The position numbers were made by a program, and so were the translations under genes. Of a DNA stretch of 64,000 bases, positions 21,036-41,407 are shown piece by piece (position 1 is the stretch's first letter; every line of letters begins with the position of its first letter). The notes under the pieces are model-generated. The model was not told the origin of the DNA. It made no database searches and saw only the letters and a program-made list of their open reading frames with translations. The DNA comes from an uncultured Burkholderiales bacterium (GTDB taxonomy: Bacteria > Pseudomonadota > Gammaproteobacteria > Burkholderiales > Burkholderiaceae_C): contig CAIJIT010000347.1 in NCBI GenBank assembly GCA_903820745.1, positions 41,939 to 105,938 of the forward strand, in the 5' to 3' direction.

Positions 21036-21068
21036 CCCCGCAATCCGCTGCGCTGCTTGTCGGGCTAC
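21036..21068 (+). repeat. 33-bp direct repeat copy 1
   Basis: CCCCGCAATCCGCTGCGCTGCTTGTCGGGCTAC; second copy at 21137 with one mismatch. Confidence 0.85.
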
Positions 21069-21083
21069 GGGATCGGTGGGTAG

Positions 21084-21116
21084 CCCGCATGGTTGGCCCG
21101 AAGGGCCGAATGCGGG
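21084..21116. repeat. REP-like inverted repeat between the two 33-bp repeats
   Basis: CCCGCAT-ggttGGCCCgaaGGGCCga-ATGCGGG style nested palindrome. Confidence 0.65.
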
Positions 21117-21136: not shown

Positions 21137-21169
21137 CCCCGCAATCCGCTGTGCTGCTTGTCGGGCTAC
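21137..21169 (+). repeat. 33-bp direct repeat copy 2 (overlaps stop codon of the maoC-like gene)
   Basis: CCCCGCAATCCGCTGTGCTGCTTGTCGGGCTAC. Confidence 0.85.
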
Positions 21170-28589: not shown

Positions 28590-30629
28590 TTGCAAGGGCG
28601 CCGCTGCGGGGCTCCTATGATGGGCAAGCATCCAGCATCTCTCAGCCACAGGCCCACCTTGACCGATTCCATCGCCAATCTTCCCGATTCACGCTTCAAG
28701 CGTTACGAATCGCTGCAAGCGGCGCTGAATCTGATCGACCAGGGCTTCACCCTGATCGACAGCAATCTCGGCCTGGTGGCCTGGAATTCGACTTTTCTGC
28801 GCTTGCTCGACTTCCCGGCCGAGATGGCTTATGTCGGAGCGCCGTTCGAAAGCTTCATCCGCTTCAATGCCTTGCGCGGCGATTACGGCAGCGGCGATCC
28901 GCAGGCCCATATCGACGCCCGCATGGCAGCCGCCCGGGCTTTCACCGAGCACCAGATCGAGCGCACAAGGCCTGACGGAACCGTCTTGCTGGTGCGTGGC
29001 CTGCCGGTGCCCGAGCATGGCTTTGTGACCCTGTATTCGGACATCAGCGACCAGCGGCGAGCCCAGGCGCAGATCCTCAAGCAGAACCAGACGCTCGAAA
29101 CCCATGTGGCCGAGCGCACTGCGGAGTTGCGGCGCAGCGAGGCGCAGATGCGCTTGATCACCGACTCGATCCCGGCCCTGATTGCCTATTCCGACCGCGA
29201 CCGGATCTACCGCTATATCAACCGCGGTTACCAGGATTGGTTCGGACTCGATCCGGCCGCGCCCGGCAAGGTCAGCGCCAAGGAGTTCCTCGGCGCCGAC
29301 ACCTTTGCCGGCATCAGGCCCTATGTGACGCAAGCCTTCGCCGGCGCGGCCTCCACTTTCGAATATGAAATCCAGCGTATCGACGGCAGCCGGGTGACGG
29401 CCCGCACCACGCTGATTCCGGAGATTTCGGCCAACGGCAAGGTGGCCGGCTGTTTCGAGCTGACTTTCGACATCAGTGCTGAAAAGCGGGCCCAGGATCT
29501 GCTGATCCAGGCGCGCAAGATGGAAGCGCTGGGCCAGTTGACGGGTGGCCTGGCGCATGATTTCAACAATATCCTGACCGTCATCATCGGCAACCTCAGC
29601 GTGCTGGATGAAGCCAGCGGTGGCAAGCAGGCGGTGGCGGATTTCGTCAAACCAGCGCTTGATGCGGCAAGGCGCGGTGCCGGTCTGATCAAGGCCTTGC
29701 AGTCGTTTTCGCGCCGGCAACCGCTGCAGGCCCGGGCCGTCGACATCGTGCCGCTGCTGGAGGCTGGCATCGGTTTGTTGCGCAGCAGCCTGCCCGAAAA
29801 TCTGCAAATCGAGTTGACCGCTGCGGCCACGCCGCTCTGGGCCTGGGTCGATGCGGATCAGTTGCAGCAGGCGCTGCTGAACCTGATTTTCAATGCCCGC
29901 GATGCCTCGCCCGCAGCCGGCCGGATCAGCTTGTGCGCGTCAGCATCTTTGCTCGACGGCGCACAGGCTGCAGACCGGCAACTAACGCCCGGGCCCTATA
30001 TCTGCATCGAAGTCAGCGACCAGGGCAGTGGCATGGACGCGCAGACCTTGGCCCGAGTGTTCGAGCCCTTCTTCACCACCAAGCGGCCGGGTTTGGGCAC
30101 CGGCCTGGGGCTGGCGATGGTGCATGACTTCATCCAGCAGTCGGGTGGCGCGATCGCCATCAAGAGCCGGCAAGGCCAGGGCACCGAGGTTGCGTTATGG
30201 CTGCCGGCCTGTGCGGCCGAGGCCGAGCAACCGCTGCTGGCCGCCGCTGCGGGAACCAGCAGCGCCAGCCGCGGACTGGCCTTGCTGGTCGAGGACGAAG
30301 CCGAAGTCCGCAAGGTGGTGCGGCGCATGTTGCGCGAGCTCGGCTTTGCGGTGATCGAAGCCGGCAGCGGCAGCGAAGCGATGCAGATCCTCGAGCAGAC
30401 CCCGGGTATCGCGCTGCTGCTGTCGGACATGGTGATGCCCGGCGAGGTCGACGGACGGGCGCTGGCTGCCTATGCGAGCGACCCGATCGGACTGCAACAG
30501 ATCCTGCTGATGAGCGGCTATGCGCCGGAACAGCCGGAGCAGCATGGGCAAGGCAGCCTGGTGCCGATCCTGAGCAAACCCTTCACTCGAGCCCAGCTCG
30601 CCGCCAAGCTGGAGGAAATCAGCTCATGA
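28590..30629 (+). CDS. PAS domain hybrid histidine kinase with C-terminal receiver
   Basis: PAS segments, MEALGQLTGGLAHDFNNILTVI H-box, GLGTGLGLAMVHDFIQQSGG ATPase boxes, receiver LLVEDEAEVRKVV...LLLSDMVMPGEVDG. Confidence 0.9.
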   Translation: MQGRRCGAPMMGKHPASLSHRPTLTDSIANLPDSRFKRYESLQAALNLIDQGFTLIDSNLGLVAWNSTFLRLLDFPAEMAYVGAPFESFIRFNALRGDYGSGDPQAHIDARMAAARAFTEHQIERTRPDGTVLLVRGLPVPEHGFVTLYSDISDQRRAQAQILKQNQTLETHVAERTAELRRSEAQMRLITDSIPALIAYSDRDRIYRYINRGYQDWFGLDPAAPGKVSAKEFLGADTFAGIRPYVTQAFAGAASTFEYEIQRIDGSRVTARTTLIPEISANGKVAGCFELTFDISAEKRAQDLLIQARKMEALGQLTGGLAHDFNNILTVIIGNLSVLDEASGGKQAVADFVKPALDAARRGAGLIKALQSFSRRQPLQARAVDIVPLLEAGIGLLRSSLPENLQIELTAAATPLWAWVDADQLQQALLNLIFNARDASPAAGRISLCASASLLDGAQAADRQLTPGPYICIEVSDQGSGMDAQTLARVFEPFFTTKRPGLGTGLGLAMVHDFIQQSGGAIAIKSRQGQGTEVALWLPACAAEAEQPLLAAAAGTSSASRGLALLVEDEAEVRKVVRRMLRELGFAVIEAGSGSEAMQILEQTPGIALLLSDMVMPGEVDGRALAAYASDPIGLQQILLMSGYAPEQPEQHGQGSLVPILSKPFTRAQLAAKLEEISS

Positions 30630-31339
30630 ACAAGCCCTTGCCCGCCGCAATGATCTTTGTCGTTGAGGATGACACCGAAGTCGCCAAACTGGTGGTCGGT
30701 GCGCTGCAGGAATTCGGCTTTGCCACAGAAGCTTTTCGCAGCGGCGGCAGCTTGCTGCGGCGACTGCAACAGGCGCGCCCTGACCTCTGCGTCGTCGACC
30801 TCGGCCTTCCCGACATCGACGGCATCGAACTGGTCAGCCAGATTGCCGCGCTGTCGGGATGCGGGGTGCTGATCCTCACCGGGCGCGGCCATATGGTCGA
30901 CCGCGTGATGGGGCTCGAGCTTGGCGCCGATGACTATATGGTCAAGCCCTTCGAGCCGCGCGAGTTGGTGGCCCGCGTGCGCAGCATCCTGCGCCGCCGC
31001 TCGACCACTGCCGTGCCAGGCAAACAGCGCCGCCATGCGAGCTTTCAGGGCTGGAGCCTCGACTGCGCCGCCAACATCCTGCGCGCCGCCGATGGCAGCG
31101 ATCACCTGCTCGGAACCGCCGAAACCCAGGTGCTGCGCAACTTCCTCGAGCGCCCGCACCAGATCCTCACCCGCGAACAACTGGTCGGCCAACGCGACCT
31201 CTCGCCGCTGGACCGCAGCATCGATGTGCGCATCTCTCGCCTGCGCCGCCGGCTCGAGGAAGATCCCCAGAACCCAAAAATCATCAAGACCGTTTACGGC
31301 GCCGGCTATATGTTCTCGGCCACCGTCACCTGGTCCTGA
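30626..31339 (+). CDS. OmpR-family response regulator transcription factor
   Basis: IFVVEDDTEVAKL receiver, DDYMVKPFEPRELVARVRSIL, winged-helix C-terminus (SIDVRISRLRRRLEEDPQNPKIIKTVYGAGYMF); start overlaps kinase stop. Confidence 0.92.
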   Translation: MNKPLPAAMIFVVEDDTEVAKLVVGALQEFGFATEAFRSGGSLLRRLQQARPDLCVVDLGLPDIDGIELVSQIAALSGCGVLILTGRGHMVDRVMGLELGADDYMVKPFEPRELVARVRSILRRRSTTAVPGKQRRHASFQGWSLDCAANILRAADGSDHLLGTAETQVLRNFLERPHQILTREQLVGQRDLSPLDRSIDVRISRLRRRLEEDPQNPKIIKTVYGAGYMFSATVTWS

Positions 31340-31351
31340 CTCGCAAAAAAA

Positions 31352-31419
31352 TGGGGTCAGAGTGTTTTTAACTGAGCCGCCGCAGGCTGCTCCCCGGGAT
31401 TAAATCGAGTCTGACCCCA
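31352..31419 (+). repeat. 68-nt palindromic repeat, copy A
   Basis: TGGGGTCAGAGT...AGTCTGACCCCA terminal inverted repeats; similar to copies at 32814, 38649, 41269. Confidence 0.85.
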
Positions 31420-31462
31420 GGTACCTGACCCCAGGCACCACCAGGCACCATTCCAGGGTTAA

Positions 31463-31933
31463 TCAGCTTTTCAACCTGTCCGATGCTGATTTGAGATTGC
31501 CCTTGGCTTGAACCAGAGTACCTGCCTTACCCAGGCCAAAGGCGGGCATATTCGCATACACGTTCTCATAGGTACCTGGGCTGGCTTTGTAGGTTTCGTG
31601 CCAAATGCCGACAGTGCCATCGGTGCCGATGGATTTGTTGAAGGCCTGCCAGGCCGGTAAATGCTCGGAGTCCTTGTTTTTGGCATAGTCCATCAATTGC
31701 TCGATGGATCGCCAATATTGAACCAGGATGATGGTGCGTGAAAACCACATCTCATGATGAATGAACCCAAGTTCGGGCTTGGTGTAGAGCTCTTTGAGCA
31801 TTTTTGGCATCGCGCCAAGGACGGGTATCAACTTGTGAAGCATCAAAGGCTTATTGATTCGCATGCCAATCAGAAACACCACGAAGTCGCCCTCCATCTT
31901 CGCGGTCATCCGGTCTTTGTAGATCATTTGCAT
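31463..31933 (-). CDS. DUF4188 domain-containing protein
   Basis: GDFVVFLIGMRINKPLMLHKLIPVLGAMPKMLKELY...MWFSRTIILVQYWRSIEQL. Confidence 0.8.
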   Translation of the reverse strand: MQMIYKDRMTAKMEGDFVVFLIGMRINKPLMLHKLIPVLGAMPKMLKELYTKPELGFIHHEMWFSRTIILVQYWRSIEQLMDYAKNKDSEHLPAWQAFNKSIGTDGTVGIWHETYKASPGTYENVYANMPAFGLGKAGTLVQAKGNLKSASDRLKS

Positions 31934-31985
31934 CCCATTCAGAAATAGAAGATCTTGTGTTTCCGCCCGGCAAATGGCAGTAAAA

Positions 31986-32029
31986 TTGACACCGTCTATT
32001 TATTCTAATCGATATCTAGACACCGTCAA
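31986..32029. promoter_or_regulatory. candidate TetR-family operator pair in divergent promoter
   Basis: TTGACACCGTCTA and TAGACACCGTCAA; inverted relative to each other, 31 bp apart. Confidence 0.5.
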
Positions 32030-32053
32030 GCAAGACTCTTGAAAGTGCCCCAC

Positions 32054-32713
32054 ATGAACGCAAAAAGCCTGGGAAGACCCAAAACCGATCCTTCAAGAGA
32101 CCTCAAACGCGACCTGCTTCTTACCAGTCGACAGTTGTTGGATGAGGGCGGTCCAGCGGCTTTGAGCATGAGGGAAGTGGCAAGGCGTGCCGCTTGCACC
32201 CACCAGGCTCCGTATCACTACTTTGAAAACAGAGAGGCAATCCTCGCATCGCTCGTGGCCGATGGTTTTGACGCTCTGGCTGAGCGCTTGAAAGAGGCCA
32301 ATGACCTAAGCGTCTCCAAGGGATTACGGGCCGCTTTAGTAGCCTCTGGCGCAGCCTATGTCGACTTTGCGCTGGTGCAGCCTGGTGTGTTTCGGATCAT
32401 GTTCAGGCCTGAAGTTTGCGATCCCTCAAGGTTTCCTGCGGTTCAAGCTTCAGGCGCCCGCGCAAGAGATGAGTTGGATCGGCTCAACACCATCGTTCAC
32501 GGCAATAAGGCGCAACCCACCATGGCCACCATACTTTGGGCACATGTGCATGGCCTGGCATGCTTGTTACTGGATGGACCCTTGGCTGTTCAATTTGAAA
32601 CCGAGCTTGAAAGAAAGAAATACCTGCGGAGCGTTGGCGAAAAGTTTGCTGATTTGGTTTTGCCCGAGTCAGTTCCATCGAAAACAAAGCTCATAGCTCG
32701 AGCACATTCGTGA
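32054..32713 (+). CDS. TetR/AcrR family transcriptional regulator
   Basis: N-terminal HTH LSMREVARRAACTHQAPYHYFENREAILASL; divergent from the DUF4188 gene. Confidence 0.9.
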   Translation: MNAKSLGRPKTDPSRDLKRDLLLTSRQLLDEGGPAALSMREVARRAACTHQAPYHYFENREAILASLVADGFDALAERLKEANDLSVSKGLRAALVASGAAYVDFALVQPGVFRIMFRPEVCDPSRFPAVQASGARARDELDRLNTIVHGNKAQPTMATILWAHVHGLACLLLDGPLAVQFETELERKKYLRSVGEKFADLVLPESVPSKTKLIARAHS

Positions 32714-32724
32714 CCTAGAAAAAA

Positions 32725-32881
32725 TGGGGTCAGATTGCAGAAAAAATGGGGTCAGATTGCATTTAACCCGACAGCCGCAGGCTGAACCAAGGGAATAAAC
32801 GGAGTCTAAAAAATGGGGGCAGAGTGTATTTAACTGAGCCGCCTCAGGCTGATCCCCGGGAATAAATCGACTCTGACCCCA
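32725..32881 (+). repeat. tandem/nested cluster of 68-nt palindromic repeat (two degraded units plus one full unit at 32814-32881)
   Basis: Three successive ATGGGG(T/G)CAGA starts; last unit ends ACTCTGACCCCA. Confidence 0.82.
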
Positions 32882-35883: not shown

Positions 35884-36252
35884 GAGCGCTCCGAAAATCT
35901 ACTGAAAACAGACGGATCTTGAGCGCTGAATGTGTGGGAATTATGTTGTTTTACGCATCCAAAGCGGATGGGCAAAGCCCTTGATGATTTTTCGAAAAGT
36001 TCTCGCATCTCGCCTGATGAAGTCCTGTGGCTCAGCCTGTCTTGGCCGTCAGCCGGTACTGAACAGGCCAAGCCGATGGACAATTCGTTCTCGACGCAAT
36101 TCGAGGATCCTCTTGTAGGCGGGGGTGTCAAGCGCCCGAGAGCCGATTGCGGAAATGGTGTCAGCTAGCATCAACCCGGGCCAGCGCTGTGCCATGTCCG
36201 GGGAAGCAATCGACTCTGACCACCAGGCTGATCGACTAAGGGGCGGGATCGC

Positions 36253-37369: not shown

Positions 37370-37536
37370 CGTCGGAAATCTCCTTGTCCTGGCCGCGCGA
37401 AATTCGGTCAATCCGGTCGCGCCTGCCGCATTCTAGGCAATCAGCTTGAAACTGCTTGCCGCATTGACGCGCATTGACGATAACCCCGGCCCGACCTAGA
37501 GTGCGCTACCTTCCCTGCCCACATGACTGTCTGCCT

Positions 37537-38631
37537 ATGACCGCCTTGCCCAATGCCTCTCCTTTCCTGACCCTGCATGAGCTGGTTAAAAAGGCCCGTC
37601 AAAAGCTCAATCAAGACGACTGGGACTACATCGTCGGCGCTACCGAAACCGAAACCACCCTCAGGCGCAATCGCCTGGCGCTGGATTCGCTTGCCTTTCG
37701 ACCCAGGGTCTTGCGTGATGTCAGCCGGATTGACTCATCGCTGAGTTTTCTGGGCCGCAAACTGCGGCTGCCGCTGCTGATGGCACCCGTTGGAAGCCTG
37801 GAACTGTTCTCGCCCGATGCGGCGGTCAGTTCGGCCAGGGCCTGTGAGCAGTTTGGCATCGCCCATATGCTCAGTTCGGTGTGCGAACCAGGCATGACGG
37901 CACTGGCCAAAGCCGTGCCCGATGCGCTGCGGATTTTTCAGCTTTATGTCTATGGCGATGCAGCCTGGATCGACGAGATCATGGCCGAAGCGATCGAGAC
38001 CGGCAATCAAGCCTTTTGCTTTACGGTCGACATGGCGCTTTACAGCCGGCGCGAACGCGATATTGCCAAACGTAACATCCGCCGCGCGGTAGTACCTGGC
38101 CGGGAGTTTCTGGCGCAGTTCAGCTGGAAGGACATTGAGCGGATCCGCGCAAAACACAGCATTCCGCTGATCCTCAAGGGCATTGCCACGGCCGAAGATG
38201 CCCTGATGGCTGTTGAGCATGGCATCGACATGGTCTATGTGTCGAATCATGGTGGCCGTCAACTTGACCATGGGCTGGGCTCGATGGAAGTTCTGCCGGA
38301 AATCGTTGCTGCGGTTGCAGGCCGGGCCAAGGTCATCGTCGACGGTGGATTCAATCGGGGCAGCGACATCGTCAAGGCGATTGCCCTGGGCGCGGACATC
38401 GTCGGACTGGGCCGCATGCAATGCCTGGGCTTGGCCGCCGATGGCGCCGATGGCCTCCTGCGCATGCTGGAACTGCTTGAGCTCGAAGTCAGGATCTGCC
38501 TGGGCCTGCTCGGCGTGACCCGCTTGGACGAGCTCAATGGAGCCCACCTGCGTGCTGTCCAGCCCACCGGGCCGGCTGGTGCTTTGAGTGCATTCCCTTT
38601 GCTGTCGCTGGACGAGGGTGCGCTTTACTGA
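37537..38631 (+). CDS. FMN-dependent alpha-hydroxy-acid oxidase/dehydrogenase
   Basis: IPLILKGIATAEDALMAVEHGIDMVYVSNHGGRQLDHGLGSMEVLPEI, DGGFNRGSDIVKAIALGADIVGLGR. Confidence 0.9.
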   Translation: MTALPNASPFLTLHELVKKARQKLNQDDWDYIVGATETETTLRRNRLALDSLAFRPRVLRDVSRIDSSLSFLGRKLRLPLLMAPVGSLELFSPDAAVSSARACEQFGIAHMLSSVCEPGMTALAKAVPDALRIFQLYVYGDAAWIDEIMAEAIETGNQAFCFTVDMALYSRRERDIAKRNIRRAVVPGREFLAQFSWKDIERIRAKHSIPLILKGIATAEDALMAVEHGIDMVYVSNHGGRQLDHGLGSMEVLPEIVAAVAGRAKVIVDGGFNRGSDIVKAIALGADIVGLGRMQCLGLAADGADGLLRMLELLELEVRICLGLLGVTRLDELNGAHLRAVQPTGPAGALSAFPLLSLDEGALY

Positions 38632-38648: not shown

Positions 38649-38716
38649 TGGGGTCAGAGTAATTTATTCGGCGGAGCCGCTGGAAGCTTGATCGAGAAAA
38701 AGCGACTCTGACCCCA
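38649..38716 (+). repeat. 68-nt palindromic repeat, copy C
   Basis: TGGGGTCAGAGT...ACTCTGACCCCA perfect 12-bp terminal inverted repeats. Confidence 0.88.
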
Positions 38717-40332: not shown

Positions 40333-41244
40333 ATGACCCAACGCTCCCCCACCACCCTATCAGCCGCCGCCTTTGCCACCTTGCTGCTGGTCGCCCTGAT
40401 GATGGGGGCCAACCATGTGGCCGCGCGGTTGGCCTTCAACCATGGCGTGGATGTGGCCACGGCGGTGAGCTTTCGCAGCAGCGTCACGGCCCTCGTGGTC
40501 GGCTTGCTATTGCTGTTGCAGCCGCCAATCCCGCTGAAGCTGACCCTCCGTCACCGGCGCGCCCTGCTGGCCATTGCCGCCTTGCTGGGCGTGCAGAGCT
40601 TGTGCCTTTATTCGGCGGTGGCGAGGCTGCCGGTAGCGCTGGCGCTGCTGGCCTTCAACACCTACCCGCTGTGGACGGCGCTATGGGCCCGATTGTTCTA
40701 TGGCCACAGACCTGCACCCCATTTGCTGCGCGCGATGCCTGTGATGCTGCTGGGCCTGGCGTTGGCGCTGGATGTGCTGGGCGCATCGTCGGGCCTTGGC
40801 GCCGCCGGACATTGGGCGCAGATCGGCACTGGCGTGGGCTTTGCGCTGACGGCGGCAGCCACTTTCGGCATGGTGCTGGTGCTCACCCAACATGAGGCCG
40901 GCGACCTGGACGGCCGCCTGCGCACCTTCACCACCATGGTCGGCGTGAGCACCATCGCCCTGATCAGCATGGCTTGGCAGGGCGGCCCACAGTTACCCGA
41001 TGCAGCGGCGGGTTGGTGGGGGCTGGGAGCGCTGACCTTGCTCTATGGCACCGCTTTCACGGTGATGTTCACCATACTGCCACGGCTGGGCGTTGTGGCC
41101 AACTCGGCGATCATGAATATCGAGCCGATCTTCGCCCTGGTACTGGCCTGGGCCATCCTGGGCCAGACCATCGCGCCGCTGCAGGTGGTCGGCGGGTTGA
41201 TGGTGGTCAGCATGGTGATGTGGCTGGGCCTGCGTCGCGCTTGA
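40333..41244 (+). CDS. EamA/DMT family transporter
   Basis: Ten hydrophobic segments; C-terminal NIEPIFALVLAWAILGQTIAPLQVVGGLMV. Confidence 0.88.
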   Translation: MTQRSPTTLSAAAFATLLLVALMMGANHVAARLAFNHGVDVATAVSFRSSVTALVVGLLLLLQPPIPLKLTLRHRRALLAIAALLGVQSLCLYSAVARLPVALALLAFNTYPLWTALWARLFYGHRPAPHLLRAMPVMLLGLALALDVLGASSGLGAAGHWAQIGTGVGFALTAAATFGMVLVLTQHEAGDLDGRLRTFTTMVGVSTIALISMAWQGGPQLPDAAAGWWGLGALTLLYGTAFTVMFTILPRLGVVANSAIMNIEPIFALVLAWAILGQTIAPLQVVGGLMVVSMVMWLGLRRA

Positions 41245-41268: not shown

Positions 41269-41336
41269 TCGGGTCAGAGTGGATTTATCGGCTGAGCAGC
41301 CGCTTGAAGTCGAAGAAAAAATCGACTCTGACCCCA
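41269..41336 (+). repeat. 68-nt palindromic repeat, copy D, with extra half-repeats on both sides
   Basis: TCGGGTCAGAGT...ACTCTGACCCCA; extra ATGGGGTCCTTT at 41253-41265 and GACTCTGACCCCA at 41346-41358. Confidence 0.85.
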
Positions 41337-41366
41337 GTTTGGGTCGACTCTGACCCCAGTTTGGAT

Positions 41367-41407
41367 CTCCCGCATTCCGGCCTGCGGCCTCCATGTCGGG
41401 CTACGCA
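41367..41407 (+). repeat. REP-like element related to the 21.0-21.2 kb repeats
   Basis: CTCCCGCATTCCGGCCTGCGGCCTCCATGTCGGGCTAC shares CCCGCAT and TGTCGGGCTAC. Confidence 0.55.

Follow-up and report, generated by a model that had tools for sequence, protein, structure and literature searches.

The four elements and their surroundings

The window analysed here, a stretch of 64,000 nucleotides from a draft genome of an uncultured Burkholderiales bacterium, contains four full palindromic elements (A to D), which end in TGGGGTCAGAGT and ACTCTGACCCCA and share a single orientation (Table 1). The earlier note had placed four units of exactly 68 nt at these positions, and all coordinates and lengths proved correct. 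The termini are exact at five of the eight ends, the exceptions being the right end of A (one mismatch) and the left ends of B (TGGGGG) and D (TCGGGT). The conserved ends and the near identity of A and B thus stand as first described; the interiors of C and D, which had been called different, do differ from those of A and B but are related to them, with 45-57% ungapped identity in the same orientation and 27-36% in reverse complement, which is above chance (shuffle p <= 0.0024 for the pairs tested).

Table 1. Positions of the 68-nt elements, their partial copies and the segment between A and B in the window.
Feature	Position	Strand	Remark
Element A, full 68 nt	31352..31419	+	Stop codon of response-regulator gene (30197-31339, +) lies 12 nt upstream
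Segment between A and B, 1.39 kb	31420..32813	.	Monooxy_af470-like gene (-), TetR gene (+), truncated element
Solitary left end TGGGGTCAGATT	32725..32736	+	
Truncated copy of the 68-nt element	32747..32807	+	Last 7 nt missing; covariance-model match 32754-32807, 24.6 bits
Element B, full 68 nt	32814..32881	+	Interior 91% identical to A
Degenerate right end AATCGACTCTGACCACCA	36208..36225	+	Near homology breakpoint vs a sister genome, beside the latter's own full element
Element C, full 68 nt	38649..38716	+	Stop codon of FMN-dependent dehydrogenase gene (37474-38631, +) lies 17 nt upstream
Element D, full 68 nt	41269..41336	+	Stop codon of EamA transporter gene (40333-41244, +) lies 24 nt upstream
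Duplicated right end of element D, ACTCTGACCCCA on +	41347..41358	-	

The elements are non-coding hairpin repeats. Folding of each copy, proposed earlier as a check, gave the same answer for all four, which as single-strand DNA fold far better than shuffles (z-scores -3.0, -4.0, -4.3 and -5.5). Allowing up to two mismatches, the terminal 12-mer occurs 14 times in the window, whereas 100 shuffles gave 3.7 on average and at most 8, and its exact form is found 10 times genome-wide, the reversed control giving 0. A covariance model trained on six 68-nt copies, among which covariation was weak, the sequences being too few, was run over the 5.1-Mb draft genome and matched A to D and the truncated fifth copy; no further full copy was found by it, so that all full copies of the genome fall in one stretch of about 10 kb, in a draft assembly whose 357 contigs may hide others. 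Mis-binning of the contig was considered and rejected, since the composition of the window is like that of the other contigs of the bin. A literature text search with the 12-mer returned, among the matches listed, only unrelated, mainly animal, papers.

Elements A, C and D and the solitary left end at 32725 lie 11-24 nt past stop codons, a T run follows A and B on the minus strand, and a minus-strand gene points towards A, B and D. This placement would suit 3'-UTR hairpins retained because they influence RNA, through termination, attenuation or mRNA stability, the transposase described below having no present role. We regard this as improbable: a terminator scan listed 16 sites where 12.0 (sd 3.8) would be expected, which is no clear excess, an Rfam search with the elements matched no family, and no terminator call spans a full element, the scan having a loop limit of 8 that would miss long-loop hairpins.

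A RAYT-like transposase gene with the same motif

The earlier note had proposed mobilisation in trans by a RAYT-type transposase, having seen no such gene in the window. No Y1_Tnp gene was found on the whole contig to which the window belongs, and a single RAYT-like Y1/HUH gene is located on another contig (C291:22247-22945), where two tandem copies of TGGGGTCAGAGT, in inverted orientation, lie directly 3' of it. A link in trans is supported at the sequence level by this gene and its motif, and by the covariation of its flanks with hairpins (see below). The 5' motif copy was lost at this genome's own gene, leaving only the 3' side; the gene bracketed by the same ends, for which a search had been suggested, is present in relatives, which carry the motif on both sides. 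Among the 30 closest relatives, motif copies are found upstream of the orthologous gene in 24 and downstream in all 30.

Of 301 family genomes sampled, 283 have orthologues of the transposase, in most cases as one match. The gene mostly stands between a dgt-like reading frame, upstream in 24 of the 30 closest relatives, and a gltB-like reading frame, downstream in 27, names that we take from conserved peptides rather than from full annotation. The HUH motif and the catalytic tyrosine are intact, and H60, H62 and Y120 are invariant in 18 aligned relatives. All 18 are matched by the Y1_Tnp and NF047646 models (the latter at E<=0.01), and the protein of this genome scores 73.8 bits with NCBIfam NF047646, below the curated cut-off of 80. 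Its best solved relative is E. coli TnpA-REP (4er8); it also has a C-terminal extension, in which Pfam gave no HTH model at E<=1. In four relatives (L245, L169, L170 and L171), and not in this genome, the transposase frame enters the 3' motif, giving a C-terminus ...IDSDPI.

The small size, non-coding middle and inverted terminal repeats of the elements are also those of MITEs of a DDE-type insertion sequence. That origin is highly improbable, as no target-site duplication is visible at any of A to D and it is a Y1 transposase gene that the same ends bracket in relatives.

Other Y1_Tnp matches of the genome, as far as inspected, have different flanking sequences without the hairpin motif. Most of the Y1_Tnp matches of this genome (G000) lie at contig ends (e.g. 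L002, L003, L005, L007-L009 and L011), where several IS200-like fragments are near-identical to one another; the assembly was therefore probably broken by a repeated IS200-like insertion sequence.

Matching variation between gene and hairpins

In several genomes the motif beside the transposase gene and the dispersed hairpins depart from the form found here in the same way. Genome G299 carries TGGGGTCAGGTT at both and lacks TGGGGTCAGAGT; TGGGGTCAGATTCCAATTA occurs in the gene-side motif and the hairpins of G111, AACATTTC/AACTTTTC in those of JACQTO, and CGATTT arms in those of G145. Over 24 genomes, the match beyond the 12-mer between gene-side motif and hairpins of the same genome averaged 6.0 of 9 positions, compared with a null mean of 4.7 and a null maximum of 5.6 (p<1/5000 in 5000 permutations, which ignore relatedness). 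This genome ranks ninth of the 24, its gene-side 3' copies diverging from the window elements just past the 12-mer. The transposase of the Paucibacter MAG G301 is 91% identical to that of this genome, and its 3' motifs bear the CGATT arm of the window elements. In several genomes the transposase found was not the cognate one. An RNA function of the hairpins leaves this species-by-species match to transposase-side motifs unexplained.

The link to the transposase is based on the shared ends, their inverted pairing, the HUH motif and tyrosine, and the covariation of gene flank and hairpin; the 68-nt form itself is restricted to a single locus. The 68-nt units are probably non-autonomous hairpins in which the terminal inverted repeat (TIR) of a RAYT/TIRYT-type Y1 (HUH) transposase, whose single gene lies elsewhere in this genome, is present twice in inverted orientation. 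Small bacterial hairpins that had been uncharacterised are hereby tied to a specific transposase gene through matched variation in many genomes, and the recognition of target by enzyme therefore becomes testable in vitro.

Length of the hairpins across lineages

Hairpins with these ends measure mostly 38-56 nt in the other species of this genus. In other proteobacteria they are mostly of 53-55 or 72-78 nt, the two length peaks among the matches listed in a survey of public genomes for the same exact ends over 53-83 nt. Given this spread, the proposal that an enzyme or structure recognises the 68-nt size as such is not supported; by the criterion set in the earlier note, constancy of length fails as a general rule, but the conservation of the palindrome holds. 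The size of 68 nt is therefore one inherited within a single lineage and no universal requirement.

Sister genomes and local history

Three sister genomes yielded full 68-nt copies, four in each of two and two in the third, all in the same region and accompanied by tandem and partial copies. Genome G301 is 96.6% identical to the window locus over 2.9 kb and has, at the position of A and B, a tandem pair of 68-nt elements only 10 nt apart, the 1.39-kb two-gene segment being absent. The segment is present in G336 (about 95-96% identical), together with extra partial copies. The monooxygenase-like and TetR genes, lying between direct copies, are thus present or absent among sister genomes, and G301 carries an extra near-identical element (C34:5218-5285) beside the end of its homology with the window; the hairpins mark sites where the gene content of close relatives differs. 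Element C is likewise 68 nt long in a sister genome. Neither a transposition event nor a clean empty site for an element was seen in the genomes compared.

Element D of G301 is split by an insertion, its halves lying at two contig ends (C34 and C69; starts of L276 and L281). The inverted ends of the insertion read CTGAAGTTCCAAC...GTTGGAACTTCAG, and CTTAGC may be a short duplication accompanying it.

By analogy with its family, the transposase would recognise a hairpin that the paired ends form in single-strand DNA, probably during replication, and would cut and rejoin these ends, thereby seeding the repeat family. Because the copies share one orientation and include tandem and truncated ones, we infer that local copy number rose mainly by slippage of host replication, or by recombination, at the hairpins, rather than by repeated transposition; local amplification of REPINs has been credited to the host replication machinery (PMC8049555). 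Independent placement of each copy by short-range, transposase-mediated transposition is a variant of this explanation and does not exclude it. The spacing of single copies at 1.4-7 kb and the extra copy of G301 speak for such placement, which we nevertheless consider rather unlikely given the shared orientation and the short periods of the tandem, truncated and half-end copies. The 68-nt form, known from only one locus, gives little direct support for enzyme-driven dispersal. Its fixed length would reflect recent common descent with substitutions but few indels, as 68-nt copies occur solely at a locus common to the sister genomes; REPINs, too, keep their length and hairpin capacity despite diverse spacers (PMC3116915).

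Relation to known systems

TIRYTs are RAYT-like genes flanked by TIRs with the motif GGGGWSAS, whose repeats occur in dimers and clusters, gene and TIRs together forming 'TIRtrons', according to Di Nocera et al. 2013 (PMC3733652). The Y1 gene described here is likewise flanked by inverted repeats (on both sides in relatives, 3' only in this genome), the motif GGGGTCAG of the elements fits GGGGWSAS, the TIR sequences recur as dimers and clusters in the genome, and the 3' TIR overlaps the gene end in some relatives. Unlike TIRYT repeats, the full 68-nt copies are restricted to one locus. Most TIRYTs fall in subclass 2.1 of Quentin et al. 2018 (PMC6006769), and the transposase of this genome probably belongs there; a C-terminal HTH domain, a feature of that subclass, was not seen here with Pfam. 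The elements fit the TIR repeats of TIRYT transposases, as new members of a known, little-studied class. Neither variation of the cognate motif across genomes nor placement between dgt and gltB was found in the accessible portions of PMC3733652 and PMC6006769.

As in the REPIN/RAYT system (Bertels and Rainey 2011, PMC3116915), two inverted ends form a hairpin, the spacer varies at constant length, and a single-copy transposase would act in trans. In contrast to REPINs, which are many and dispersed genome-wide, there are very few copies in this draft assembly, four of them full and at one locus; the individual ends are not themselves palindromic, and the GTAG-type tetranucleotide is absent from all four elements. 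An identity as GTAG-tagged REPs was rejected on this last ground, the working nonetheless being REPIN-like. With IS200/IS605 elements the cognate transposase shares the Y1/HUH chemistry domain (Y1_Tnp), but the 68-nt elements are geneless and the inspected IS200-like copies of the genome lack the motif.

The TIRYT gene may also be an ancient one, single between dgt and gltB in most of the family, whose flanking TIRs are retained by selection for a host function in gene control or DNA processing, the dispersed hairpins tracking its changing specificity. We advance this tentatively, as a reading with somewhat less than even chances; if true, the family would provide a natural series for reading the co-evolution of a transposase and its DNA target.

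A separate, REP-like family of GTAG-tagged palindromes, e.g. GTAGCCCGACATGGAGGCCGCAGGCCGGAATGCGGG, is found at 21037-21068, 21080-21116, 21138-21169 and 41369-41404 of the window. One such palindrome adjoins element D, a similar one lies near a motif pair on contig C272 (L031), and the GTAG-tagged stretch has many more matches in G000 and G301.
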